This document shows positions 1 to 14,535 of a DNA stretch of 14,645 bases, in pieces. Location of the stretch: positions 1-14,645 of the forward strand of contig JAFGVM010000086.1 in NCBI GenBank assembly GCA_016937995.1, written 5' to 3'. The notes beneath the pieces are model-generated. The model worked only from the letters and a program-made list of their open reading frames with translations. It was not told the DNA's origin and ran no database searches. Position numbers and translations under genes: made by a program. How positions within the stretch are numbered: position 1 is the first letter of the stretch; each line of letters starts with the position of its first letter. The stretch comes from Candidatus Delongbacteria bacterium (GTDB taxonomy: Bacteria > UBA4055).

Positions 1-1193
1 GCACAACAGAAGCAAAAATAAATCTGGATAACAGCAAAGACAGGGGATTATCCAGATCATTCAGTGTAACAACTTCAGCGTCAAAAGCGGGTGATCCAAA
101 TGTTTTTGAAGTAACATCAGATATTACAAATATTGCAACATATTCTACTACCATGAGAGCAGGCAGTAATGGCAGATATACAGATTTTAGTCCTGAAAAT
201 GTTTTTTTAGGCCTAAATGCTGGTTGGCAAACTGTTCCTGATACAACTCAAATTAATACAGGTCAAAGGAATGTATTCATAGGTAACAATGCAGGATACG
301 GTAATTCAACTGGATATGATAACATATTTGTTGGTACTAATTCAGGATATTCAATATCTACTGGACCATCCAATACAGCGATGGGAGCTTATTCACTTAG
401 TTCAACTACCTGGGGTGGACAAAATACTGCAATTGGTTATGAGTCTATGCTTAATAGTGATCATGGCATGATGAACACTGCTCTCGGTATGTGGTCATTG
501 ATGAATAGTGAGGACGGTAGTTACAATACATGTGTAGGAATGTACTCCGGTTATGGTAATAAGACAGGTGGTTATAATACTTCAATTGGCTATAAAAGTT
601 ATGATTCAGGATTTAATTCTGGAGGAGCTCATACTTACTGTACATTTTTAGGGAATGATGCTGATATAACAGGTGTGTCTACATATACTAATGGCACAGC
701 TGTGGGTAATGGAGCAAAAGTATCTGCCAATGATCAGGTAAGAGTGGGAAATGTATCTGTAACCAGTATTGGAGGCTATGTAGGTTGGACAACACTGGGC
801 AAAAAAAGTTACTCAAAGGAAGTGAATGAAAATATAGTCGGTTTGGAATTTATAAAGAAACTAAGACCTGTATCATACGATCTTGATGTTGAGATGATAA
901 ATAAGGATCTTGGAATTGAACAAAACACAGATGATACTGATGTCAAAGGTTCCATCAACAGAAGTAAGAACTTAAAAAGATCTGGTTTTTTTGCAGAAGA
1001 AGTATTAAAAGCAGCAGAAGAAAGCGGGTATGATTTTACCGGTTTGGATAAACCCGGGAATAAAGATGATCAATACGGTCTGAGATACTCAGAATTTGTT
1101 GTTCCATTGATCAAAGCAGTGCAGGAACAACAGGAAATAATTGAAAAACTTGAAGCAAGAATAGAAGAATTAGAAATAAAAACTGACAAATAA
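1..1193 (+). CDS. Exported repeat fibre-like protein with S74-type C-terminal domain, 5' end cut by window edge (paralogue 1)
   Basis: The reading frame is open from base 3, so the ATG at 153 is internal. Codons 3-86 encode the second half of the leader shared by the four downstream paralogues (TTEAKINLDNSK, then LSRSFSVTTSASK). The visible 396 residues then give a QYTDFSPEN-type entry segment (GRYTDFSPENVFLGLNAG), about seven 17-residue Gly/Asn repeats (bases 261-630) and a linker with GNGAKVSANDQVRVGN. After that comes a region matching the S74/tail-fibre chaperone type: VGLEFIKKLRPVSYDLDV, a GFFAEEVLKAA helix (the family's GxIAQEV), YGLRYSEFVVPLIKAVQEQ and a terminal heptad coiled coil. 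The usual S-D-x-R-F-K cleavage motif reads as G-K-K-S-Y-S-K, so self-cleavage is doubtful. It is probably exported like its neighbours, but the signal peptide lies outside the window. It ends 27 bases before the next gene. Function as a surface fibre or adhesin is inferred. Confidence 0.85.
   Translation, partial: TTEAKINLDNSKDRGLSRSFSVTTSASKAGDPNVFEVTSDITNIATYSTTMRAGSNGRYTDFSPENVFLGLNAGWQTVPDTTQINTGQRNVFIGNNAGYGNSTGYDNIFVGTNSGYSISTGPSNTAMGAYSLSSTTWGGQNTAIGYESMLNSDHGMMNTALGMWSLMNSEDGSYNTCVGMYSGYGNKTGGYNTSIGYKSYDSGFNSGGAHTYCTFLGNDADITGVSTYTNGTAVGNGAKVSANDQVRVGNVSVTSIGGYVGWTTLGKKSYSKEVNENIVGLEFIKKLRPVSYDLDVEMINKDLGIEQNTDDTDVKGSINRSKNLKRSGFFAEEVLKAAEESGYDFTGLDKPGNKDDQYGLRYSEFVVPLIKAVQEQQEIIEKLEARIEELEIKTDK
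3..86 (+). repeat. 84-base perfect direct repeat, copy A (leader of paralogue 1)
   Basis: Bases 3-86 are identical to 1377-1460. Both encode the second half of the conserved leader. Identity may extend further left, beyond the window edge; base 2 already differs from the corresponding base 1376. Confidence 0.95.
261..630 (+). repeat. Coding tandem repeat array, about 7 units of 17 residues (51 bases)
   Basis: Units follow the pattern xxN-[VTI]-x-[IVM]-G-xx-[AS]-x-x-x-x-x-x-G, for example RNVFIGNNAGYGNSTG then YDNIFVGTNSGYSISTG. The units are diverged at DNA level. This is the shortest and most degraded array of the five paralogues. Confidence 0.8.
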
Positions 1194-1220
1194 ATTGATC
1201 ACCGAAAAAAGGGAGAAGGA

Positions 1221-2900
1221 ATGAGACATATAATTATTTTCTTAATAATCGGAGTTTTAACAATAAGCGCAGAAACACTTTTCGAGATAAAAGATAACAG
1301 TGGCGAACCGGTATTTTCTATCTCAGATGACGGTATGCGAGTGATCAATAACGGTGATACAATGATGGTGATCAGTACAACAGAAGCAAAAATAAATCTG
1401 GATAACAGCAAAGACAGGGGATTATCCAGATCATTCAGTGTAACAACTTCAGCGTCAAAATCCGGTTATGCAAATGTATTGGAAGTTACGACCGATTCAA
1501 CTAATATTGGCACTAGATCAACAACAATGAGAGCGAATGGAGTTGGGAGGTATACAGCCTTTAGTCCGGATAACATGTTCATTGGATTGAATTCTGGCGC
1601 ATCAACGACACTTGGGGTACCTGATCCGATTTATTCGGGCAGGTATAATGTTTTTTTAGGCAATGAAGCTGGTGCTAATAATACTTCAGGTTATGTAAAT
1701 ACTTTTACAGGATATCAGGCGGGAATGTCGAATACTACAGGTCATCATAATTCATTTTATGGTCTTCAAGCTGGTTATTTGGCAGACACGGGTGAAAATA
1801 ATTCATTTTTCGGTTTTCAAGCCGGTTATTCAGCTACTTCAGGAACAGATAATGTTTTTATCGGAACCAGAGCGGGTTATTCAAACTCAACGGGAAGCTA
1901 TAACGTAAGTATCGGTAATGATGCTGGAAAGGCCAATTCAGGTATGGGGAACGTGAATATTGGTAATGAAGCTGGTATGAGCAATGAGTCAGCATTTAAT
2001 ATTTTCATAGGAACCTCGGCAGGTAAAGATAATTCCAGTGGAGCTGCAAATACATTTATTGGTAATCTTGGAGGAGCGAATAATACTACAGGTTCATACA
2101 ATACATATATGGGGTGGACTGCAGGAGCTAGTAATAATGGAAGCAATAATACATTTCTAGGTACTTGGGCTGGCTGGAATGTCATTGGAGCAGATAATAA
2201 TGTTTATTTAGGATATTTTACCGGAAAAGGTAATAATTACGGAGATAATAACGTTTTTATAGGAAGCAATGTTAATGTTGCAGGATCTAATAAATTAGCA
2301 ATTGACAATACTGATACAACTACACCACTGATATACGGTGATTTCTCGTCAAATGCTTTGACTGTGAATGGAACCCTAAATGTGACTGGGAACACTTCAT
2401 TGGGTGGCACTCTTACAACTACGGGAAACACAGGCATAGGTGGTAATTTAACTACTACAGGCAGTGCTACAGTTCAAGGATCAATTATAACTTATAGTAA
2501 TGTGTCGTTGGCAGGGACTTTGACGACACCATCCGTATTTACAGATAATAACGGCCTTGTTATATTGAACAATCCCGGGACAGCAGCAGATCCTACTTCC
2601 TATGTTTATCAAGGAGCACCAAGCTCTACTTCAAAAGGTTATGCATTTGCAATTAAGGATGCTCTATGGGTAACCGGACCAGTATTTGCCCCTGACGTAT
2701 ACTATAGAAATACTACCTACGGTAAAAAAGTCGTATATGTCGATGCAATGGGTCAATTTTGTGTGCAAAGCAAAGGTGATAGTGATGTCGCTGACAACAG
2801 AGATATTGAATTATTGAAAGAAGATAACAAAAAATTAAAAACCGAGATCGAATTATTAAAATCAGAGATAGAAGTAATTAAAATGCTTTTAAGAAAATAG
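1221..2900 (+). CDS. Exported repeat fibre-like protein with beta-repeat shaft and coiled-coil C-terminus (paralogue 2)
   Basis: 559 residues. A signal peptide (residues 1-17, cleavage expected after ISA) precedes the conserved leader (18-80: ETLFEIKDNSG, PVFSISDDG, INNGDTMMVIS). An entry segment YTAFSPDNMFIGLNSG leads into about 13 Gly/Asn repeats (about 140-355). Next come the exit segment LAIDNTDTTTPLIYGDF, a Thr/Gly beta-repeat region (about 377-440, LNVTGNTSLGGTL type) as in phage fibre shafts, and a 40-residue module (451-490, NPGT to DALWVT) shared with paralogue 4. A heptad coiled coil finishes the protein (about 525-559, LLKEDNKKLKTEIELLKSEI). No S74 domain is present. The start is supported by a purine-rich GGGAGAAGG just upstream. 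It follows paralogue 1 by 27 bases and precedes paralogue 3 by 8 bases, so co-transcription is likely. A trimeric surface fibre is inferred from the shaft-like repeats and coiled coil; binding partner unknown. Confidence 0.88.
   Translation: MRHIIIFLIIGVLTISAETLFEIKDNSGEPVFSISDDGMRVINNGDTMMVISTTEAKINLDNSKDRGLSRSFSVTTSASKSGYANVLEVTTDSTNIGTRSTTMRANGVGRYTAFSPDNMFIGLNSGASTTLGVPDPIYSGRYNVFLGNEAGANNTSGYVNTFTGYQAGMSNTTGHHNSFYGLQAGYLADTGENNSFFGFQAGYSATSGTDNVFIGTRAGYSNSTGSYNVSIGNDAGKANSGMGNVNIGNEAGMSNESAFNIFIGTSAGKDNSSGAANTFIGNLGGANNTTGSYNTYMGWTAGASNNGSNNTFLGTWAGWNVIGADNNVYLGYFTGKGNNYGDNNVFIGSNVNVAGSNKLAIDNTDTTTPLIYGDFSSNALTVNGTLNVTGNTSLGGTLTTTGNTGIGGNLTTTGSATVQGSIITYSNVSLAGTLTTPSVFTDNNGLVILNNPGTAADPTSYVYQGAPSSTSKGYAFAIKDALWVTGPVFAPDVYYRNTTYGKKVVYVDAMGQFCVQSKGDSDVADNRDIELLKEDNKKLKTEIELLKSEIEVIKMLLRK
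1377..1460 (+). repeat. 84-base perfect direct repeat, copy B (leader of paralogue 2)
   Basis: Identical to 3-86. The other leaders (3072-3148, 4987-5070, 6670-6753) encode similar residues but differ at many synonymous positions, so this pair is recent or has been homogenised. Confidence 0.95.
1638..2285 (+). repeat. Coding tandem repeat array, about 13 units of 17 residues
   Basis: Successive units such as VNTFTGYQAGMSNTTG, HNSFYGLQAGYLADTG and NNSFFGFQAGYSATSG keep a 17-residue register with occasional 15-18 residue units. The alternating hydrophobic-x-G and Ala/Ser-Gly spacing resembles the beta-roll head repeats of trimeric autotransporters (14-15 residues there), but the unit is longer. 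Confidence 0.88.
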
Positions 2901-2908
2901 GACAACAT

Positions 2909-4819
2909 ATGAGAAAGATATTTTTAGTGTCAATAGTATTATTCAGCATGCTAGGTGCTGAGACTTTATTCGAAATAAAAGATAATAGCGGTGATCCGGT
3001 ATTCTCGATATCCGATGACGGGTTAAGGGTTTTCAACCTGGGTGATACACTTATGGTGATCAGTGCGTCTGAAATTAGAGCGAACCTCAGCAACAGTAAA
3101 GATAAAGGTTTGTCCAGATCATTCAGTGTGACAACATCTGCTTCAAAAGGGGACGGTAACGATCTAATGCGACTCACCCCTGACAGTACAAGGTTCTGGA
3201 TAAGTGATGCAGGAGCGGGATTTGGTGTGTCAAGCCAGACAGCTTTAAAAGAGAAGAGTGTGGCTACTAATTTTCTTAAAGTATCAAATGTAAATACTCA
3301 GATGAGAGAAGGTGTCGGAGGAAATCAGTATACAGATTTTAGCCCTGAAAATATATTTTTAGGTTTGAATTCTGGAATAAGTACAGTTCCTGCAGGAGAA
3401 ACTTCAGGCGAAAGCAATGTCTTTCTGGGGAATTTAAGTGGTGGAGTAAACGTTTCAGGGGCTGCTAATGTATTTGCCGGGTATAAATCGGGTTTTTCAA
3501 ATTATAATGGGCATAAGAATTGCTTTATAGGACAGGAATCAGGATACAAAAATTATAGCGGAATTGAGAATGTTTTCATCGGCTATCAAGCTGGTTATAA
3601 CAATTATGATGGAGATCGAAACGTTTTTTTGGGGTATAGATCAGGTGTTCAGAATATTTCTGGTGTGAGAAATGTTTTTATAGGTTATGAATCCGGGACA
3701 AGCAATGGAACTGGTTGGGGTAATACTTTTGTAGGAGAGGCAAGCGGTATGTCCAATACAGACGGATATGGGAATTCATATTTTGGACGTAATTCAGCAG
3801 CAAGTATTTCTACAGGAGACTATAACACTGTTATGGGGAATGAGTCTATAGCAGCAAATCAGAGTGGTAGTTTTAATTCCTGTTATGGAGCTTTTAGCGG
3901 AAAGTGGAATTATTCGTCAGGTTCTTCAAATTCATTATTTGGTTATCAGGCTGGTTATGGTGTTGCGGTAAGTTCGAATACGTATAGTAATAACTCTTAC
4001 TTCGGAACTCAGAGTGGATTTTCTACAACAACTGGATCAGATAATTCATATTTTGGTTATCAAAGTGGCTATAATAACAATACCGGAACTGGAAATGTAT
4101 TTATAGGTTATCAGGCAGGTTACAATGAAACAGGTTCAGAATTATTGTATATCGATAACTCAAGTACAACACAACCATTGATCTACGGAGATTTTGATAG
4201 TGATTATGTTAGATTTAATGCAGATATAAGTGTTAAAAACCAAACGTCATTAAATCATTTGGATGTAACTGGACAAACAGATCTTAATGGAGGGGTTAAT
4301 GTAATTGGAGATGCAACGATAACTGGGACACGAGCGTCTGTTATTCATCCAATGGGACAAACAACAAATGGATTATTCATCCAATCTTCTTACAATAGCA
4401 ATACTGACTCATGGCATTTTTATCAATCCACAGTAGACAACCTTACGTTGTGGTATAATACTACTTTAAGAGGAACATGGGATTTAACTTCAGGTGTCTA
4501 TACCTCCTCATCAGATAAGAGATTCAAAAAAAATATAGAGGAATTAACAAAAGTGATGGATAAAGTGATGCTTCTTCAACCTAAGAGGTATAATTTTATT
4601 TCTCAGAAAAATAATGATGGTAAGTATATCGGGCTGATAGCTCAGGAAGTCGAAAAACTGTTTCCTGAATTTGTTATGTATAACGAAGAAGCTGATGCAT
4701 ATACAATGGATTATGCCGGTCTAAGTGTAGTTGCAATTCAGGCTATAAAGGAGCAGCAGGAACAGATCGATAAGCTAAAATCAGAGATTGAAGAAATTAA
4801 AAATATTTTGAATAAATAG
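2909..4819 (+). CDS. Exported tail-fibre-like protein with intact S74 (endosialidase-type) chaperone domain (paralogue 3)
   Basis: 636 residues. Signal peptide 1-17 (cleavage after LGA), conserved leader 18-80, then a segment found only in this copy (about 88-130, DSTRFWISDAGAGFGV and ATNFLKVS). The entry motif QYTDFSPENIFLGLNSG follows, then about 14 Gly/Asn repeats (168-412), the exit segment LLYIDNSSTTQPLIYGDF, a short beta-repeat stretch and a knob-like region (about 476-534). The C-terminal 100 residues form an S74 intramolecular chaperone domain: S535-D-K-R-F-K540, KVMLLQPKRYNF, YIGLIAQEVEKLFPEFV, YAGLSVVAIQAIKEQQ and a final coiled coil. In phage fibres this domain drives trimer folding and is then released by cleavage just before the Ser; the Ser-Asp-x-Arg-x-Lys motif is intact here. 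An AGGA site precedes the ATG. Gaps are 8 bases to the previous gene and 11 to the next. A trimeric surface fibre is likely; target unknown. Confidence 0.9.
   Translation: MRKIFLVSIVLFSMLGAETLFEIKDNSGDPVFSISDDGLRVFNLGDTLMVISASEIRANLSNSKDKGLSRSFSVTTSASKGDGNDLMRLTPDSTRFWISDAGAGFGVSSQTALKEKSVATNFLKVSNVNTQMREGVGGNQYTDFSPENIFLGLNSGISTVPAGETSGESNVFLGNLSGGVNVSGAANVFAGYKSGFSNYNGHKNCFIGQESGYKNYSGIENVFIGYQAGYNNYDGDRNVFLGYRSGVQNISGVRNVFIGYESGTSNGTGWGNTFVGEASGMSNTDGYGNSYFGRNSAASISTGDYNTVMGNESIAANQSGSFNSCYGAFSGKWNYSSGSSNSLFGYQAGYGVAVSSNTYSNNSYFGTQSGFSTTTGSDNSYFGYQSGYNNNTGTGNVFIGYQAGYNETGSELLYIDNSSTTQPLIYGDFDSDYVRFNADISVKNQTSLNHLDVTGQTDLNGGVNVIGDATITGTRASVIHPMGQTTNGLFIQSSYNSNTDSWHFYQSTVDNLTLWYNTTLRGTWDLTSGVYTSSSDKRFKKNIEELTKVMDKVMLLQPKRYNFISQKNNDGKYIGLIAQEVEKLFPEFVMYNEEADAYTMDYAGLSVVAIQAIKEQQEQIDKLKSEIEEIKNILNK
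3410..4144 (+). repeat. Coding tandem repeat array, about 14 units of 17 residues
   Basis: Very regular at the start (for example ENVFIGYQAGYNNYDG, RNVFLGYRSGVQNISG, RNVFIGYESGTSNGTG). One unit near 3930-4000 is expanded to about 21 residues. The last unit ends GYNETG, exactly as in paralogue 5. Confidence 0.88.
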
Positions 4820-4830
4820 GATTCCGTATT

Positions 4831-6477
4831 ATGAAAAAAATAGCTCTCATCATCTTTGTATGTATTATATCCTTAAGTGCTGAAACTCTCTTTGAGATCA
4901 AAGATAATAGTGGACAGCCTGTATTCTCGATTTCAGACGATGGAATGAGGGTTATAAATAACGGTGATACAATGATGGTAATAAGTTCAACTGAAGCTAA
5001 GATCAATCTGGATAACAGTAAGGACAGGGGGTTGTCCAGATCTTTCAGTGTTACAACTTCAGCATCAAAAGCAAACGGTACAAATGTATTAGAAGTTACA
5101 ACAGACCAAACAATTATGAGAGAAAGCACACAGGGAGATCAATATACTAATTTCAGACCTGATAATATTTTTATAGGATTAAATTCGGGAGCTTTTTCTA
5201 CAGGTACCCAAAATGTTTTTTTAGGCAATGAAAGTGGGATTAATAATTCATCAGGTAATTATAACATTATGATCGGTGATAAAGCGGGATTTAATAATAG
5301 TACCGGGGGCGAAAATTTATTCATAGGTAATAATTCTGGGTACACCAATACTATAGGGACTTATAACTTTTTCATCGGTCATGATAGCGGAAAAAATAAT
5401 ACTGCCGGTAATAATATGTTCGTTGGGCATAATGCGGGTTTTACCAATAGTAGCGGTGATGCAAATTTATTTTTAGGCACAGATGCAGGAGCATATAATT
5501 CAGACGGTTCATCCAATGTTTTTATCGGTCAACAGACTGGTTTGTATAATACACATGGAGATAATAACACTTTTGTCGGAAGATGGTCAGGTAATTCGAA
5601 CCAGCTGTATTCGAATGATAATACAATGATCGGTTATAAGGCAGGATCATCCCAAACATCAGGTAATCAAAATACATATATAGGATCAAGTTCAGGAATG
5701 TCAAAAACATCAGGCTACTATAACACTTTTGTCGGATTCGGTTCGGGTCAGAATAACGGAACAGGTGGGTATAATGCTTTCTATGGATATCATGCTGGTT
5801 ACAATAATACGGGAAACTATAATACATTCATAGGAATGCAGTCAGGATATAGTAATGCAGGATCAAACAGTGTGTTCCTTGGATATAAATCAGGATATAA
5901 CGAAACAGCATCCAATAGACTCTATATTGAAAATTCTGATTCTGCAGCTCCGCTGATATATGGAGAATTCGATAATGATTTGGTCCAGATCAACGGAGAA
6001 CTTACCACCACAGGCAACCTATTTATGAACGGAGCATATTTCAAGATATTAACAAATCCCGGGACGGATGCAGTTCCGACAAACTACGTTTATCAGGGTA
6101 GTAGTACTGCTTCAACATCAAAGCAGTACGCTTTCACTGTCAATGATGCACTTTGGGTCACATCTCATGCTTATATTGATGGATATATTCAGGTTGGTGG
6201 AGGAACTAATATCTCAAAGACACAGGCAGGTACTTATTCTGCAGGTGTAAATTCAACAGGTGGAGTTAAAACTGTCACAATTACATTTCCTACAGCCTTT
6301 ACAACAACTCCTAAAGTTAATGTAACACCAAAAGGACAGAATTTTACTGATACTTTCGCAGTAACGACTAGAAATATAACAACAACATCTTTTCAGGTGA
6401 ACATATACAGAGTCGACAGTCCGGGTGGAATATGGGGACAGACATTGTCACTTGACTGGTTTGCTTGGCAACAATAA
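4831..6477 (+). CDS. Exported repeat fibre-like protein with H-type-lectin-like C-terminal tip (paralogue 4)
   Basis: 548 residues. Signal peptide 1-17 (cleavage after LSA), conserved leader 18-80, entry segment QYTNFRPDNIFIGLNSG, about 14 Gly/Asn repeats (126-364) and exit segment RLYIENSDSAAPLIYGEF. A 40-residue module (409-448, NPGT to DALWVT) is shared with paralogue 2. The last 71 residues (478-548) read as a small beta-sandwich: KTVTITFPTAFTTTPKVNV, TRNITTTSFQVNI, and a closing Trp-rich strand SLDWFAWQQ. This spacing (VxFxxxFxxxPxV, then N-x-T-x-x-x-F, then W-x-A-W) fits H-type lectin or phage fibre-tip domains, which bind sugars. There is no S74 domain and no C-terminal coiled coil. 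It lies 11 bases after paralogue 3 and 33 before paralogue 5. A glycan-binding surface fibre is inferred; the lectin call is moderate. Confidence 0.88.
   Translation: MKKIALIIFVCIISLSAETLFEIKDNSGQPVFSISDDGMRVINNGDTMMVISSTEAKINLDNSKDRGLSRSFSVTTSASKANGTNVLEVTTDQTIMRESTQGDQYTNFRPDNIFIGLNSGAFSTGTQNVFLGNESGINNSSGNYNIMIGDKAGFNNSTGGENLFIGNNSGYTNTIGTYNFFIGHDSGKNNTAGNNMFVGHNAGFTNSSGDANLFLGTDAGAYNSDGSSNVFIGQQTGLYNTHGDNNTFVGRWSGNSNQLYSNDNTMIGYKAGSSQTSGNQNTYIGSSSGMSKTSGYYNTFVGFGSGQNNGTGGYNAFYGYHAGYNNTGNYNTFIGMQSGYSNAGSNSVFLGYKSGYNETASNRLYIENSDSAAPLIYGEFDNDLVQINGELTTTGNLFMNGAYFKILTNPGTDAVPTNYVYQGSSTASTSKQYAFTVNDALWVTSHAYIDGYIQVGGGTNISKTQAGTYSAGVNSTGGVKTVTITFPTAFTTTPKVNVTPKGQNFTDTFAVTTRNITTTSFQVNIYRVDSPGGIWGQTLSLDWFAWQQ
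5206..5922 (+). repeat. Coding tandem repeat array, about 14 units of 17 residues
   Basis: Units such as ENLFIGNNSGYTNTIG, ANLFLGTDAGAYNSDG and YNTFVGFGSGQNNGTG. The last three units are shortened to 16 residues. DNA of adjacent units is diverged, so recent slippage expansion is not evident. Confidence 0.87.
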
Positions 6478-6510
6478 ATAAAAATTTAATATTGAGGAAA
6501 AGGATAAAAT

Positions 6511-8172
6511 ATGAAGATTGTAAAATTTATTTTGATGCTAATTGTTATAGCTTCTCTAAGCGCAGAAACTCTTTTTGAAATTAAAGATAACAGTGGACAG
6601 CCTGTATTCTCGATTTCAGACGATGGTTTAAGGGTTATAAATAACGGTGATACAATGATGGTCATAAGTTCTACTGAAGCTAAGATCAATCTGGATAACA
6701 GTAAAAACAAAGGCTTGTCAAGATCGTTTGCAGTTACAACATCAGCTTCAAAAAAATCAGGAACAGTAAATGTTATGGAGGTTGGAACACAATCCACTAC
6801 ACTTCGTGAAGGTGAGGCAGGAGATCAATACACGCAATTTAGCCCTGAAAATCTTTTTATCGGTTTAAATGCGGGAATTCATACGACACCATACAGTTAT
6901 TGGGGAGGAATGAATAATATTTTCCTTGGAAACTCTAGTGGCTATTGGAATGATTGGGGAACAGATAACATTTTTATTGGAGATAGTACCGGTTTTAACA
7001 GCAAAAATACAGATAAAAATATATTCATCGGAAATCTTGCTGGATTTAATACTGAGTCAGATGATCCTGGATATGGTAGTTCGAATGTATTTATCGGTGT
7101 TAAGTCGGGGTACTCAAATATAGAAGGTATGCATAGTGTTTATGTAGGTCAGCAAACTGGTGAAATGAATTACAATGGAACAGCGAATGTTTTTATTGGT
7201 AGCCTTACGGGTAAGGAAAATAACAGTAATTTTAACACTGCTGTTGGAGGAACTACGTTTTACAAAAATACTTCAGGTTCAAGTAACACAACTTTAGGAT
7301 GTTTTGCAGGTTATAATAATTTAACAGGTTCCAGGAATGTTTTTTTAGGTTACAAAGCAGGTTATAATGAAACCGGTTCAGATAGATTGTATATTGATAA
7401 TTCAGACACCTCAACACCTTTGATCTGGGGTGATTTCAGCGCAAACACTTTAAGATTTAACGGCAATGTCGGAATTAATACAGCACCAAGCTCAAGTTAT
7501 GGTTTATATTCTCTTAGCGATTACAGGGGAGTTTATGGCTATGCTTATACTTCAGCAGATGATTTTACTTACGGTGTTTATGGATACGGATATGGGGGAG
7601 CTGTAAGGAATGTTGGAGTGTACGGAACTTCTGGTGGCACTGGAACTAACTGGTCAGGGTATTTTGTAGGAAATGTTTATGTAGGTGGAACTGTTTCAAA
7701 ATCAGCAGATGAAATTAAGATCGATCATCCACTCGATCCGGAAAATAAATTTTTATACCACTCAGATATTTCGAGTGATCAAATGACAAATATTTATCAT
7801 GGTAATGTAATTCTCGGTCATAATGGTGCTGCTGAAGTTATATTGCCTGATTGGACAGAAGAAATAAATAAAAATTTCAGGTATCAGCTTACAGCCATAG
7901 GAGCACCCGGACCTAATTTATATATTTCAAAAAAAATTGATAACAATAGTTTTGAAATTGCAGGTGGTTCAGAAGGAATGGAAGTATCATGGCAGATCAC
8001 CGGTATCAGAAATGATAAATATGCTCAAAAAAATCCAATGAAAGCAGAAGTTGAAAAAAGTAAGAATGAAAAAGGTTATTATTTACACCCTGAAGCATAT
8101 GGTAAAACGGAAGAAATGGGTATAGAAGACCATATTCAAAAGATTGAAAGAAAATTAAAGGATGAAAATTAG
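6511..8172 (+). CDS. Exported repeat fibre-like protein with GVYG repeats and a conserved C-terminal domain of unknown function (paralogue 5)
   Basis: 553 residues. Signal peptide 1-18 (cleavage after LSA), conserved leader 19-81, entry segment QYTQFSPENLFIGLNAG, the second shortest array (about nine units, 134-290) and exit segment RLYIDNSDTSTPLIWGDF. A GVNIGN-like strand (FNGNVGINTAPSS) leads into short GVYG/YGVYG repeats (about 325-395). Residues 397 to about 520 form a compact domain: KIDHPLDPENKFLYHS, MTNIYHGNVILG, AEVILPDW, FRYQLTAIGAPGPNLYIS, EVSWQITGIRND and GYYLHPEAYG. I recognise this as a conserved C-terminal module seen in many bacterial repeat proteins but know no assigned function. 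A short amphipathic helix (DHIQKIERKLK) ends the protein. The ribosome binding site is GAGGA/AAGGA upstream of the ATG. It is last in the tight cluster. A surface role is inferred. Confidence 0.88.
   Translation: MKIVKFILMLIVIASLSAETLFEIKDNSGQPVFSISDDGLRVINNGDTMMVISSTEAKINLDNSKNKGLSRSFAVTTSASKKSGTVNVMEVGTQSTTLREGEAGDQYTQFSPENLFIGLNAGIHTTPYSYWGGMNNIFLGNSSGYWNDWGTDNIFIGDSTGFNSKNTDKNIFIGNLAGFNTESDDPGYGSSNVFIGVKSGYSNIEGMHSVYVGQQTGEMNYNGTANVFIGSLTGKENNSNFNTAVGGTTFYKNTSGSSNTTLGCFAGYNNLTGSRNVFLGYKAGYNETGSDRLYIDNSDTSTPLIWGDFSANTLRFNGNVGINTAPSSSYGLYSLSDYRGVYGYAYTSADDFTYGVYGYGYGGAVRNVGVYGTSGGTGTNWSGYFVGNVYVGGTVSKSADEIKIDHPLDPENKFLYHSDISSDQMTNIYHGNVILGHNGAAEVILPDWTEEINKNFRYQLTAIGAPGPNLYISKKIDNNSFEIAGGSEGMEVSWQITGIRNDKYAQKNPMKAEVEKSKNEKGYYLHPEAYGKTEEMGIEDHIQKIERKLKDEN
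6910..7380 (+). repeat. Coding tandem repeat array, about 9 units of 17 residues
   Basis: Units include NNIFLGNSSGYWNDWG, DNIFIGDSTGFNSKNT and RNVFLGYKAGYNETG. One unit near 7060 carries an insertion of about five residues (ESDDPGYG). Confidence 0.83.
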
Positions 8173-8263: not shown

Positions 8264-11248
8264 ATGAAGTACAAACTACTGCTTCTGCTTCTATGGACCA
8301 TGTCTGTTGTGCATGCGACAATAGTAGTAGATCCTAACTGTACTATCAATTTCGGGGCTTCCGATGTTTATATCAGCGGTGGGCTTCAGATCGATCTTGT
8401 AAAAGATGTACCCAAGTATCCTACGATCACTTTTGATCCAGGTTCAAGATTGTATTTTGTCGGTTCTGGTGATGCTGATCTTACAAATGTATATGTACTG
8501 CGTAATGTTACGGTAGATAAACCCTCAGGTGATCTGTATATAAACAGCGGTCTTAATATTACAGGTAACCTTGATTTTGTGAGTGGAAATCTTATCACAG
8601 GAGCAAATTCAGTAACTCTTGATCAGACTTTGAATGGCAATCTGTCCGGAGAGAGTGCAACTTCTTATGTAGTGGGAACGGTGGTTGCCAGCAGACTGAT
8701 CGGTACTGGAACTTCAAATTTTGGAAACATCGGGTTTGCTATTACAAACTCAGGAAATAATCTTGGTACTGCTACAGTGACAAGAGAATCCGGAAGCGGA
8801 AGTGATGTTAACATTTATGGTTCAAATGGTATCGAAAGAAAATGGACTTTAGGTACTTCTGTTGGTTTTACAGGTACCAGGAATGTTACTTCAAGCTGGC
8901 TTTCAAATGAAGACAATGGTAATACTCTGGCCGATCTTAAAGTTTGGAAGTACGAACCGGCAAAAAGTGATGATTCTTATAATGATGTAGTTTCTCAGAA
9001 GAGAATATTAAAGAATTCTTCAAGCAAAACTGCAACTCGTTCAGACAGAGAAATAAGAGAGTCAGGCCCGGAAATTGATGATGATCTTGTGCAAATAGTT
9101 GAAACGGATCCTAAAACACTTGGATGGGTGGAAGTTGATGGTGCAAGTTTTAATACATCTTCATCTCCAAGGACCTCAATGTTCTCAATTGATGCAGCTA
9201 CAGTATTTACAATAAATGACGCACTGAATGCTTTTGCAGATGGTTCAGGAACTGAAGCTAATCCATATCAGATAGCAACCTTAGATCAATTAGATGACGT
9301 AAGATACTATTTGTCTGCATGTTTCATCCAGATCGCAAATATTGATGCCTCGCCAACTACAGGTTGGGACTCTGGTGCAGGCTGGACTCCTATAAGTGGG
9401 TTTGGTGGAAAATATGATGGTCAGGGGCATACAATTTCAAACCTGTTTATTGACAGGACCACTAATAACATTGGGCTTTTTGGTGTAACAAATGCGGGAA
9501 GTGAAATAAAAGATCTGGGACTTGAAAATGTTGATATTACCGGAGGAACATACACAGCTGGATTAGCTCCTTACAGCCAGGGAACAATATCAGGATGTTA
9601 TGTTAAAGGAACAGTTTCTTCTGCATATGATTATCTTGGTGGATTAGCCGGTTACGCAAGAACAGGGTCTTTCATTACAGATTCATATTCGTATGCTGAT
9701 GTGATTTCAACTGCAGTGTCAGGATTGAATATAGGTGCTTTTTGCGGACGATTATATAACACACCAATAATAAACTGCTACTCTACGGGAAGTGTTACAA
9801 TTAATAGTTCAAATCCCGGAAACAGGGGTTTTGTAGGTGCTGTAGGTACCGGAATCACTATGACTAATAATTTTTGGAACACTGAATTGTCCGGACAGAC
9901 CACTACAGCGGGTACTGCTACAGGATTAACCACGAATGAGATGAGAACTTTATCAACATTTACAGATGCAACCTGGGATTTTCAGGATGAAAGTGCTAAC
10001 GGTGTTGAAGATATTTGGGGAATGAATTATGCAGATAATAATGCATTTCCTTTCCTTAGCTGGCAGGGAATAGCTCATGATCCTATTTCGGGCTTTGCAG
10101 GAGGTATGGGAACAGAGTCTGAGCCGTTTTTAATATCAAATTTGACTGAGCTTGATAATGTGAGAAACTTTTTGACAGGTTATTATTTTTTACAAACCGA
10201 CGATATAGATGCATCTGAAACTACTGGTTGGAATGGTGGGGACGGTTGGATACCAATAGGATATACAAGTCCTTATTTTACCGGAAGCTATGATGGTGAT
10301 AACCACAAAATATCTAATTTGTACTTCGATACCAGCCTTCAGTATTCCGGTCTTTTTGGTGTCGCTTATACAAATTCAGTTATAAAAAACTTAGGATTGG
10401 TTGATATAGATGCAAATGGCGGAACTGTTTACTCAGGAACTATTTCAGGTTACAGTAATAGTGAAATTTCAAATTGTTTCGTATCAGGAACTATTAGATC
10501 AAATAGCTATACAGGTGGATTTTTAGGATACTCAAATGGTGCTACGGTCTCTGATTGTTATTCAAAAGTTGATGTTACAAGAATAACCGGGAACACAGGA
10601 ACATTTGTAGCAGGTTTTATAGGTTACAATGGATTAGGAACTATACAAAGATGCTATTCTATAGGTGCAGTATATTATGAAGATGCAACAGATCCTGTTA
10701 ACCGGGGATTTTCAGGAGGGAATACGGGAACCATCAGTGATAGTTTCTGGGATATAGAAACTTCCGGTCAGAGTACAAGTGGGGGTACTGCAACCGGTAA
10801 ATCTACTGCTGAAATGCAGGATGTTTCAACATATACCGCTACAGCTACAGTAGGTCTGACCACTCCTTGGGACTTCGTGGGAGATCCTAATGATGATGTA
10901 GCAGCTGATGACTACTGGAATATTCATGCAAGTCTTAACGGTGGATATCCTTACTTTGAGTGGGAGGGAAGGATCCCTGTTCTTGCACCGGGTAATGTAG
11001 TATTAGCATATGACGGAAGCGATGTGACAATTACCTGGGATGCTGTTTCAGGGGCGTCAGGTTATGCTGTCTATTCTTCAGATGATCCTTACGGAACGTT
11101 CAGTTTAGATGGATCGGGCTCTTTCAACGGAGAAGAGTGGACTGTATCTACAGCTGATCCAAGGATGTTCTATTTTGTGACAGCGACCAACGCAACTAAG
11201 GAGACCCCTAAGACAATTAGCATGCAAAATCATGTTGTGAGTAAATAA
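8264..11248 (+). CDS. Large exported surface protein with duplicated GLUG-repeat block and fibronectin-III-like end
   Basis: 994 residues. Signal peptide 1-18 (LLLLLLW core, cleavage after VHA). Residues 19-320 are beta-rich, with TLNGNLSGE, GTGTSNFGNIGFAI and GTATVTRESGSG, as in exported proteins of Bacteroidota-like phyla. Two homologous blocks follow: about 323-605 and 611-900. Each opens with F-A-x-G-x-G-T-E-x-x-P-[YF]-x-I, then DIDAS..TGW and YDG..H.ISNL, then GLUG-type turns (GGLAGY, GGFLGY) interleaved with Cys-Tyr-Ser strands (CYSTGSV, CYSIGAV), and closes with W..E.SGQ and [YF]PF..W.G. Residues 905-990 resemble a fibronectin III domain (VTITWDAVSGASGYAVYSSDD). GLUG repeats occur in secreted adhesins and polysaccharide-associated proteins. 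No obvious C-terminal sorting signal or membrane anchor is seen. It lies 91 bases after paralogue 5 with its own strong ribosome binding site, so it may have a separate promoter. Role unknown; surface adhesion is the best guess. Confidence 0.88.
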   Translation: MKYKLLLLLLWTMSVVHATIVVDPNCTINFGASDVYISGGLQIDLVKDVPKYPTITFDPGSRLYFVGSGDADLTNVYVLRNVTVDKPSGDLYINSGLNITGNLDFVSGNLITGANSVTLDQTLNGNLSGESATSYVVGTVVASRLIGTGTSNFGNIGFAITNSGNNLGTATVTRESGSGSDVNIYGSNGIERKWTLGTSVGFTGTRNVTSSWLSNEDNGNTLADLKVWKYEPAKSDDSYNDVVSQKRILKNSSSKTATRSDREIRESGPEIDDDLVQIVETDPKTLGWVEVDGASFNTSSSPRTSMFSIDAATVFTINDALNAFADGSGTEANPYQIATLDQLDDVRYYLSACFIQIANIDASPTTGWDSGAGWTPISGFGGKYDGQGHTISNLFIDRTTNNIGLFGVTNAGSEIKDLGLENVDITGGTYTAGLAPYSQGTISGCYVKGTVSSAYDYLGGLAGYARTGSFITDSYSYADVISTAVSGLNIGAFCGRLYNTPIINCYSTGSVTINSSNPGNRGFVGAVGTGITMTNNFWNTELSGQTTTAGTATGLTTNEMRTLSTFTDATWDFQDESANGVEDIWGMNYADNNAFPFLSWQGIAHDPISGFAGGMGTESEPFLISNLTELDNVRNFLTGYYFLQTDDIDASETTGWNGGDGWIPIGYTSPYFTGSYDGDNHKISNLYFDTSLQYSGLFGVAYTNSVIKNLGLVDIDANGGTVYSGTISGYSNSEISNCFVSGTIRSNSYTGGFLGYSNGATVSDCYSKVDVTRITGNTGTFVAGFIGYNGLGTIQRCYSIGAVYYEDATDPVNRGFSGGNTGTISDSFWDIETSGQSTSGGTATGKSTAEMQDVSTYTATATVGLTTPWDFVGDPNDDVAADDYWNIHASLNGGYPYFEWEGRIPVLAPGNVVLAYDGSDVTITWDAVSGASGYAVYSSDDPYGTFSLDGSGSFNGEEWTVSTADPRMFYFVTATNATKETPKTISMQNHVVSK

Positions 11249-11339: not shown

Positions 11340-13931
11340 CTATTCAACTACTCTCTTTACATCAGCGGAAGGTTGAGAAATAATTACAGCGGCATCATTA
11401 AGATATTTATTTGCAACAGCTTTGATTTGCTCAGGGGTTACTTTTCTAAGATCTACCAGTTGATCCTTCAAGAAATTGTAACCAAGACCCAAGGATTCAT
11501 ACCTTGTCATAGTACCTACCAACTGATTATCGGTAAAATACCCGTCAAGCATCTTTGCATAACCTTCTACAGACAGATTGATCTCTTCTTGACTTATATC
11601 ACCATCGATCAATCTTTGAACTTCATGTTTAAGAACTTTGACAAGTTCATCTTTTTTACCTAAAGAAGTCTGAGCAACGATCCTGTAAAATCCGTAGTCC
11701 TTAGTTCCTGAATAATATGAATATGCTGAATATACGAGGTCATTATCAACTCTCGTAGCCTTCATAAGTCTACCTGAGAAACCGTTAGCCATAACTTGAT
11801 TTAAAGCTGTCATAGAAAAATATTCAGGATCTCCCTGTAATGGAGCTTGAAAGTTAATTACTACATTTACCTGCTCAAATTCGCATTCATCAACAAATGT
11901 ATCATTTAATTTAGGTACTACCAACGGGATCTTTTCCCCTTTAATTTTTCCATCAGGGATATTGTTCTTTATGTTCTTAGCGTATTTCTCTGCCTTATCT
12001 TTTGATATGTCCCCGAATAGTGTAACTATTATACTTTCTGCTTTAACATATTTTTTGTACATATTTTTGAGATCATCTCTGGAAATATTTTGCAAAATAT
12101 CGTTTTTCTCTTTTGCAGTAACACCTGATTTTTGACCTTTGTAAAGAATTGATGATCTGAATTCATCATAAGCATGATTTGGGCTGCTGATACTTCTTTT
12201 ATATGAAGCATCTTCTCTTTCTTTGGCAAGTATTAATTCTTTTTCATCAAATTCAGGATCGTTCATAATGCTGTAAAATCTTTTAAGAAGCTCATCAAGA
12301 TCTTCTTTGATGCATTTGAAGCTAACATAAACTCCGTTAGGGGAGATATTTGCATTTAATTGTATCGCATGGTCTTCCATCCAGGAAGTTAAGTCCATTG
12401 AAGAATAGTCTTTGGTGCCACCACTATACATGTTATCAATTAAGAACTGGAAAGTCCCGACATTTTCTAACGTTTCATAATCTGAAGATATCGGCAGGAA
12501 TATTTCTCCCTGAATAACTGGATCAGTAGTATTCTGCTTGTAAAGTAAAGTAATATCATCATCGACCATGATCTTTTCGACATTAGACTTAACGACTTCT
12601 ATCGTCTTATCCTGTATGCTTGATTTTTGTCCTTCAGGTACTGCAAAGTAGATAACTCTATTATCAGGGATATAGTATTTTTTTATTGCGTCTGTGACCT
12701 TCTTAGGAGTTAAAGCTTCATATTGAGCTATATGCATATCAAATATATCAGGAACTCCGTAAACCATCATATTCCAACCTATTTCCTGAGCTTCATCGTC
12801 TAATGCAGGAGTTGTTAAAATTTTCTGAGCTTTTTCTCTGGTGATAACTTCATCGATCTGCTTTTGAGTAATTCCTTTTTTTGCAACTTCAGCTATTATC
12901 TCATCAATTCTTCGAACTACTGTATCTAAATTTTTAGTCTCTTTAGTTTCAAATACATACTGGATCATAGTCTCTGGAAAATGACCACCATCGTTAAAGT
13001 ATCCATATATCCAGTTTACAAGTTTTTCTACTTCGACAAGATTATATTGTACTGGGGAATTTCTTTTTTCAAACAAGATCTGAGATGCCATTGTTATAGC
13101 TGCAAAATCATCAGATTCTGCAGGAGGAATAAGTTTAGTAATAAATGCTCGTGGTTGCTGAATAGCAAATTCATCAACGTATTTAATATTGCCAGGGCGA
13201 ATTCTTTCTTTAGGTTGATATACAGGAACAAGAACGTCTCTTTCATAGTCCTTGAAAGTTTCCTCTATCTTTTTCATTGTTTCATCTACATCAAGATCAC
13301 CTACAGCTACGAATATCATATTGTTAGGCATATATCTTCTACTGTAATAATCCATCATATCTTCTCTGGTGTTCTTTTTGAATATCTCAATGTCACCGAT
13401 AACCTCATTTTTCACATTAGAAGTAAGGAAAGTTCTTGCTCTCATTTTGTTATAAACTTTAGCCATAGGAGATGCAACCCGGTAAACAAATTCTTTTACA
13501 ATTACATCCTTCTCTCTCGTTACTTCAGTTGAGTCAAATGCACAATTTACTATATTATCAGCAAGTAATTCCAAAGTAGTGTCCGCATATTTCTTATCAG
13601 CCTGCATATAGTAAACAGTTGCACCAAAAGTTGTATATGCATTTGAGATAGCTCCCAGTTCTTTTCTTTTATCAGAGTGCCATGCTTCTGTGTGATTTGT
13701 TGTAGAACCACCTGAAACAATATGCTCAAGGTAATGGGATAATCCCTTTCCTAAATATTCTCCTTCATCGATAGATCCAGTCTTTACGAACATAAAGAAT
13801 CCAACTGAAGTGTTACTTTTATTTTCCTTTACGACCACCTGCATTCCATTTGGTAGAGTTTTAGTAATAATATTCTCGGCGAATAAGGCAATGGAGAATA
13901 TTAATGCTACGATAATGATGCTTTTTTTCAT
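11340..13931 (-). CDS. Exported two-lobe M16 family zinc metallopeptidase (insulinase/PqqL-like)
   Basis: 863 residues with a signal peptide (MKKSIIIVALIFSIALFAEN), so it probably acts in the periplasm or at the outer membrane. The inverted zinc motif H66-Y-L-E69-H70 is intact. E147 lies 76 residues after H70 (in VIVKEF), exactly the family's HxxEH-x76-E spacing, so the N-terminal lobe should be catalytic. The usual SNAYT segment, the DYYSRRYMPNNMIFVAVGD strand and the second-subdomain helices follow. The C-terminal half (about 460-863) repeats the fold without HxxEH but keeps the substrate-gripping G-[FS]-x-G-R-L-M-x-x-x-R and D-L-V-Y-S signature. At about 860 residues it matches two-lobe periplasmic peptidases rather than single-lobe processing peptidases (about 420). 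AAAGG upstream of the ATG supports the start. It is convergent with the GLUG gene and downstream of the ParB-like gene across 217 bases. It degrades peptides; the substrate is unknown. Confidence 0.93.
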   Translation of the reverse strand: MKKSIIIVALIFSIALFAENIITKTLPNGMQVVVKENKSNTSVGFFMFVKTGSIDEGEYLGKGLSHYLEHIVSGGSTTNHTEAWHSDKRKELGAISNAYTTFGATVYYMQADKKYADTTLELLADNIVNCAFDSTEVTREKDVIVKEFVYRVASPMAKVYNKMRARTFLTSNVKNEVIGDIEIFKKNTREDMMDYYSRRYMPNNMIFVAVGDLDVDETMKKIEETFKDYERDVLVPVYQPKERIRPGNIKYVDEFAIQQPRAFITKLIPPAESDDFAAITMASQILFEKRNSPVQYNLVEVEKLVNWIYGYFNDGGHFPETMIQYVFETKETKNLDTVVRRIDEIIAEVAKKGITQKQIDEVITREKAQKILTTPALDDEAQEIGWNMMVYGVPDIFDMHIAQYEALTPKKVTDAIKKYYIPDNRVIYFAVPEGQKSSIQDKTIEVVKSNVEKIMVDDDITLLYKQNTTDPVIQGEIFLPISSDYETLENVGTFQFLIDNMYSGGTKDYSSMDLTSWMEDHAIQLNANISPNGVYVSFKCIKEDLDELLKRFYSIMNDPEFDEKELILAKEREDASYKRSISSPNHAYDEFRSSILYKGQKSGVTAKEKNDILQNISRDDLKNMYKKYVKAESIIVTLFGDISKDKAEKYAKNIKNNIPDGKIKGEKIPLVVPKLNDTFVDECEFEQVNVVINFQAPLQGDPEYFSMTALNQVMANGFSGRLMKATRVDNDLVYSAYSYYSGTKDYGFYRIVAQTSLGKKDELVKVLKHEVQRLIDGDISQEEINLSVEGYAKMLDGYFTDNQLVGTMTRYESLGLGYNFLKDQLVDLRKVTPEQIKAVANKYLNDAAVIISQPSADVKRVVE

Positions 13932-14148: not shown

Positions 14149-14535
14149 TTAAAGTTTACTATGATCAGTCCACATGCGTTCGCACCGATCTATCCAGAGT
14201 TTTTGATAGTCGGTTCTATTTAAAATTCTCCCGTCAAGATCTGAGATCGTTGTTATTTTTTCACTTAGACACCATTTTACACAAACTTTATACAGATCCC
14301 AGTTAAGTTCATCTTCATCCCAGATGACTTTTGCTTTTTTTATACCTAATTTATTTAGAGCATACAATCTTGTGTGTCCGTCTGTGATAACTATTTTTTT
14401 ATCGAGTAATTTTATTGGGATCGGGTCATATGAGTTTATATCATTTGTGAGTTTAGTATTTACTGCTGCAAGTTTTTCTTCAGAGATGTACAATTGGCTT
14501 GGTTGGAGAGATGATATTGGTTTTAGAAGTGGCAT
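14149..14535 (-). CDS. Small stand-alone ParB-like N-terminal-domain protein
   Basis: 128 residues. The N-terminus, with LQPSQLYISEEKL (10-22), is typical of a family of small ParB/Srx-fold proteins. YDPIPIKLLDKKIVITDGHTRLYAL (36-60) carries the G-H-T-R motif that replaces the G-E-R-R nucleotide-binding loop of true ParB proteins. WDEDELNWDLYKVCVKWC (72-89) and DLDGRIL...LWIDRC (99-118) complete the family pattern. There is no helix-turn-helix DNA-binding domain or dimerisation domain as in chromosomal ParB (about 290 residues), so it is not a partition protein. Related stand-alone proteins are, from memory, somewhat longer (about 170-190), making this a compact version. Nucleotide (CTP/ATP) binding is possible from the fold but not shown. 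The family start motif lies immediately after the chosen ATG; the ribosome binding site is weak. Function unknown. Confidence 0.8.
   Translation of the reverse strand: MPLLKPISSLQPSQLYISEEKLAAVNTKLTNDINSYDPIPIKLLDKKIVITDGHTRLYALNKLGIKKAKVIWDEDELNWDLYKVCVKWCLSEKITTISDLDGRILNRTDYQKLWIDRCERMWTDHSKL

Follow-up and report, generated by a model that had tools for sequence, protein, structure and literature searches.

The closest described relatives of the proteins considered here belong to four different systems, namely the tail fibres and spikes of phages that carry an S74 (ICA) domain, a domain also found in MYRF; the type Vc trimeric autotransporter adhesins, in particular the heads of YadA, EibD, CbpF and BpaC; the 'tail fiber domain-containing' proteins of Bacteroidota, encoded on Hymenobacter plasmids, together with a plasmid protein of Aureispira; and the H-type lectins (PF09458). 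In phage endosialidases, S74 drives trimerisation of the chain, after which it cleaves itself off by means of a Ser-Lys pair (PMC3742443). The locus analysed here, from an uncultured phylum, has parts in common with all four, and no published description of its fibre family was found in the literature searched, the coverage of which was incomplete. Its most interesting feature is an N-terminal leader that is sharply delimited and probably co-adapted.

A tandem array of leader-bearing genes

The window, i.e. the whole stretch of DNA analysed (14,645 nt), is a complete contig, C34, of a metagenome-assembled genome (2.75 Mb, 97% complete) of Candidatus Delongbacteria. Five ORFs, all co-directional, fill positions 3 to 8172 with intergenic gaps of 27, 8, 11 and 33 nt, which bears out the tight five-gene cluster recognised in a sequence-only reading of the same DNA. 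The window contains the following features:

3-1193, + strand: gene 1, fourth gene of the array; end of the leader, repeats and an S74-like end without the Ser-Lys pair; no exit segment
1221-2900, + strand: gene 2; leader (1269-1463), shaft of 17-residue repeats, exit segment, short coiled-coil end
2909-4819, + strand: gene 3; leader (2957-3151), shaft, exit segment, S74 chaperone domain (4511-4675) with the Ser-Lys pair (SDKRFK)
4831-6477, + strand: gene 4; leader (4879-5076), longest shaft in the window, exit segment, H-type lectin end (about 6271-6465)
6511-8172, + strand: gene 5; leader (6562-6756), shaft, exit segment, GVYG segment, end domain without a Pfam family (7645-8163)
8264-11248, + strand: GLUG-repeat secreted protein, a conserved downstream neighbour 91 nt past gene 5; not a fibre gene
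11340-13931, - strand: M16-family peptidase, a conserved boundary of the locus, outside the fibre system

The C-terminal part of the GLUG-repeat protein (about residues 905-985) recurs at many sites in the genomes of the phylum. A small minus-strand ORF (14149-14535) reads like a ParB/sulfiredoxin-type fragment; it had no match in Pfam and a weak, non-significant one in NCBIfam.

The contig begins within gene 1, leaving it open at its 5′ end, and the window holds only about the last 30 residues of its leader. The earlier reading had given all five genes the same leader; the repeats and S74-like end of gene 1 are indeed present, but its 5′ part lies on another contig, C93. A whole-genome search showed that C93 encodes three complete members (A, B and C) followed by the N-terminal 60-odd residues of one more, and its end overlaps the beginning of the window by 35 nt, all identical and in frame. 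Because of this overlap, and because no other contig of the genome gave a leader match, we infer a single tandem array of at least eight genes, in the order A-B-C-1-2-3-4-5. The junction, which was deduced from the overlap and not read through, falls inside the conserved leader, as is typical of an assembly break.

All complete members start with a hydrophobic N-terminus that, judged by eye, resembles a Sec signal peptide. It is followed by the 63-residue leader (ETLFEIKDNSG...SRSFSVTTSASK), for which 33 of the 67 alignment columns are invariant across the eight genes, the individual leaders being 69-88% identical to that of gene 1. Next come the shaft, made of 17-residue repeats (NxFIGxxAGxxNxTG), the exit segment PLI[YW]G[DE]F, present in every gene of the array except gene 1, and finally the C-terminal module. 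The leader, the repeats and, for genes 2-5, the exit segment had all been recognised previously. Two truncated ORFs of 66 and 68 residues (L054:2940-3137 and L071:7224-7427) consist of the leader alone and lie inside or at the edge of arrays; they are likely to be scars of deletion or recombination. Another member (L065:3632-4549) has five tandem leader units and a coiled coil without a shaft, and the leader can therefore also serve as a repeatable stalk unit.

Of the 13 genomes of the phylum, 11 were positive with a leader profile, with no more than 16 matches per genome, most of them in tandem, and the chromosomal position of the arrays is conserved. All relatives in named public genomes belong to Candidatus Delongbacteria. 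A chance origin of the family was rejected in view of this distribution and of the identity among leaders, and an assembly artefact in view of the near-null codon identity of the leaders (see below) and their occurrence in ten other assemblies.

The flanks of the arrays consist of housekeeping or signalling genes. The 5′ end of the array lies inside a contig in six genomes, and in each of them a cyclase/AAA/TPR gene is found upstream (two of these six genes were run against Pfam); GLUG-type genes follow the array in seven genomes, with an M16 peptidase gene further on in four. Matches to phage fibre and spike families were obtained for the shaft and for S74, and one could imagine a decayed phage tail, tailocin or contractile injection system, from which the fibre genes survived and were duplicated. 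We consider this improbable: the flanks are conserved from genus to genus and contain no virion genes, either here or in six or more other genomes; the leader had no match in 2.9 million viral contigs, nor did the five-leader protein, used as query, find any in phages and plasmids; and the chains start with signal-like segments, which phage fibres do not need. The chromosomal, non-phage nature proposed for the cluster thus holds in this and in related genomes, and a phage origin of the shaft and S74 modules themselves, in genes that lie outside any prophage, is plausible from the sequence matches.

Shaft and C-terminal modules

In the predicted structure of the gene 4 protein, confidence is high for much of the shaft (blocks with pLDDT 80-94) and low for the leader, and the end domain is unusable. 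The top Foldseek match of this model was EibD, with a weak E-value (1.3). Using VIA-align, the shaft model was superposed on EibD over 112 residues (Z 10.9, 2.8 Å) and on CbpF over 180 residues (Z 10.5, 5.3 Å); phi29 gp12 gave similar Z scores but an rmsd near 12 Å. The Pfam YadA_head family matched 7 of 65 family members (best 3.3e-20), all located outside the window, and the likeness of the window's shaft to YadA-type heads is one of model alignment only. The modelled shaft is therefore likely, though not proven, to be a YadA-like beta-roll related to the heads of trimeric autotransporters, in line with the fibre character originally attributed to these proteins. Trimerisation of the chains would fit the beta-roll fold, the S74 domains and the terminal coiled coils.

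Among the 65 phylum members, Pfam assigned S74 to 34, YadA_head to the seven just mentioned and H_lectin to six; the recurrent C-termini are S74, the H-type lectin, a domain without a Pfam family and short coiled coils. The same tip types recur on differing leaders in array genes of other genera, which supports the modular tips of the earlier reading. The types it had assigned to individual genes were also recovered for S74 in gene 3 (PF13884 above cut-off, 1.9e-15), for S74 in gene 1 (with a score below the Pfam threshold) and for the lectin in gene 4, while genes 2 and 5 gave nothing convincing in Pfam. That every copy bears a different tip does not hold for the whole array, as S74 ends recur in genes A and B, and gene C has a short coiled-coil end of the same type as gene 2.

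Every S74 domain above cut-off in the genome belongs to the fibre array. The Ser-Lys pair is kept in 30 of 35 S74 modules, including those of genes 3, A and B; in the other five, gene 1 among them, one or both residues are missing, gene 1 having Gly and Ser at the two positions. S74 had been proposed as a receptor-binding tip. By analogy with the phage enzymes (PMC3742443), it is probably instead a self-cleaving trimerisation chaperone that is removed and not used for binding. Since the pair is kept in genes 3, A and B, the mature ends of their products should be the segment before S74, whereas gene 1 should keep its S74-like end after maturation.

The H_lectin domain (PF09458) of gene 4 (6.8e-7; 29.8 bits against a curated cut-off of 24) is shared with five relatives and suggests, at the level of sequence, glycans as ligands. 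Neither gene 4, gene 5 nor a profile of the gene 5 end had a sequence match in the PDB, and the sole PDB matches of the lectin profile had E-values of 0.28-0.29, i.e. no convincing solved relative. The end of gene 5, the model of which is too weak for structure search, is a recurrent domain without a Pfam family, detected by profile 20 times in nine genomes; within the phylum it is confined to contigs of the fibre locus. All occurrences are on contigs with leader genes except one (G011:C466), which has a GLUG-type neighbour gene. A common origin of the lectin and gene 5 ends is not claimed (profile comparison probability 0.4%).

A constant N-terminus joined to a variable C-terminus, in tandem, is also the layout expected of polymorphic toxins, with a constant delivery part and exchangeable toxic ends. 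This is highly improbable here: the gaps of 8-33 nt leave no space for immunity genes, and the ends are S74, lectin and coiled-coil modules, no toxin family having been found with Pfam.

Likeness of leaders within genomes

We compared 62 members module by module and scored, for each module, the genome of the nearest relative and, for the leader, also its end type. With the leader, 52 of the 62 nearest relatives came from the same genome, where 7.4 were expected (none of 2000 shuffles reached this value, the label shuffles treating genes as independent), and the end type was shared in 27 cases against 22.7 expected, i.e. without excess. No such genome effect was seen in the shaft (entry, 7 vs 4.9 expected; mid shaft, 5 vs 5.9), the exit segment (2 vs 5.4), the signal-like segment (9 vs 6.4) or the tips (S74, 7 vs 3.7; gene 5 end, 0 vs 1.2). 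The leader tree requires 16 genome changes, compared to 42.9 with shuffled labels, its single branches being poorly resolved given the shortness of the leader. Ends and shafts are old and common to several genera, while one short N-terminal module is alike within each genome.

Where leaders of the same genome have the same amino acid, their codons agree at 0.478 against a null of 0.402, i.e. synonymous sites are near-random, and agreement above 0.8 was found for one pair only, genes 1 and 2, which share 84 identical nt. Recent gene conversion was therefore rejected as the whole cause of the likeness. With synonymous codons near the null, the likeness is for the most part ancient and maintained by selection, and exchange is rare. 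The identical stretch in genes 1 and 2, like the truncated leader-only ORFs within arrays, could be taken as a sign that the array works as a repertoire for recombination or phase variation, expression being limited to one or a few genes and the rest acting as donor cassettes. The chances of this are slim, as every complete gene has its own start and signal-like segment, the genes follow each other in an operon-like manner and the nearly randomised leader codons indicate that exchange is rare.

The genome-specificity of the leader is consistent with co-adaptation, over a long time, to a partner or base that the leaders share. On the simplest reading, every leader in a cell would interact with one and the same partner, be it an anchor, an exporter or each other. 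That the start of these proteins is alike within a species and the remainder is not suggests one common docking base. The leader-only likeness indirectly supports the common anchoring base of the sequence-only reading, in which surface display and anchoring are putative: no C-terminal YadA_anchor (PF03895) was detected in the whole genome and none of the 57 matches to the type IX secretion system (T9SS) sorting domain (TIGR04183) lies on C34 or C93. The genome does encode a SprA-type T9SS component, and this SprA homologue and the 57 sorting tails make for a rich T9SS in a Delongbacteria genome.

A proposed shared fibre base and its place among known systems

Our preferred explanation, which we consider probable, is that the array is a chromosomal, operon-like set of eight or more genes whose products are exported and form fibres, probably homotrimeric, that have a leader-dependent common base and provide several binding ends per cell. 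Each chain would be exported by means of its signal-like segment and cross both membranes; the leader would form the shared base and anchor the fibre at the surface, followed by the beta-roll shaft, the exit segment and a C-terminal module (S74 chaperone, H-type lectin, undescribed domain or short coiled coil). The S74 module would cut itself off once the chains have trimerised. A single leader-dependent partner or base would serve the different fibres, giving each cell several binding ends, presumably for adhesion. The computed basis of this explanation comprises the array, its domains, the fold resemblance of the shaft, the locus, the tips across genera, the leader-only likeness and the status of the Ser-Lys pair, to which export across both membranes, trimerisation, self-cleavage, anchoring through the leader and adhesion are added as putative steps.

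As there is no outer-membrane anchor and no T9SS tail, the surface location of the fibres is putative. The same lack, together with the fact that several ends are merely coiled coils, would suit exported structural proteins of the periplasm or of an extracellular matrix, not displayed at the surface and without a receptor-binding role. We regard this as unlikely, since proteins without ligands would hardly be expected to have H-type lectin ends and several different conserved end domains. A more specific, tentative version of the preferred explanation is that the leader works as a docking tag recognised by an outer-membrane partner specific to the lineage, for export or anchoring, forming a base with N-terminally anchored, YadA-like fibres of reverse polarity and exchangeable C-terminal ends; if true, this would be an export route other than type V or type IX secretion. 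The contrast between the leader and the rest of the protein points to a common-base interface and makes the question of export and anchoring testable.

Compared to the S74 phage tail fibres and spikes, the present proteins have the S74 domain with its Ser-Lys pair (PMC3742443) and a shaft and S74 similar to those of phage fibres, but their array is chromosomal and free of virion genes, their N-terminus is signal-like and their leader is absent from phage collections. The plasmid-encoded proteins of Hymenobacter and Aureispira likewise combine 17-residue repeats with S74, and the Aureispira protein carries a gene 5-type end (44% identity); unlike the array members, they have another N-terminus, are encoded by single genes and adjoin genes for T9SS sorting-domain proteins (L073:4123-6513 and L074:6381-10308), which are possible export or anchoring partners. 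The H-type lectin, in turn, is here mounted at the end of a bacterial repeat fibre. With type Vc adhesins the family shares the beta-roll shaft, by model alignment, and the YadA_head domain in seven members, but the C-terminal YadA anchor is missing from the genome and the polarity is reversed, the variable module being C-terminal and the constant one N-terminal. The locus is thus a real, conserved, chromosomal array of modular fibres, a variant of the known fibre adhesins in which phage-fibre and trimeric-adhesin parts are joined in a conserved system of an uncultured phylum.
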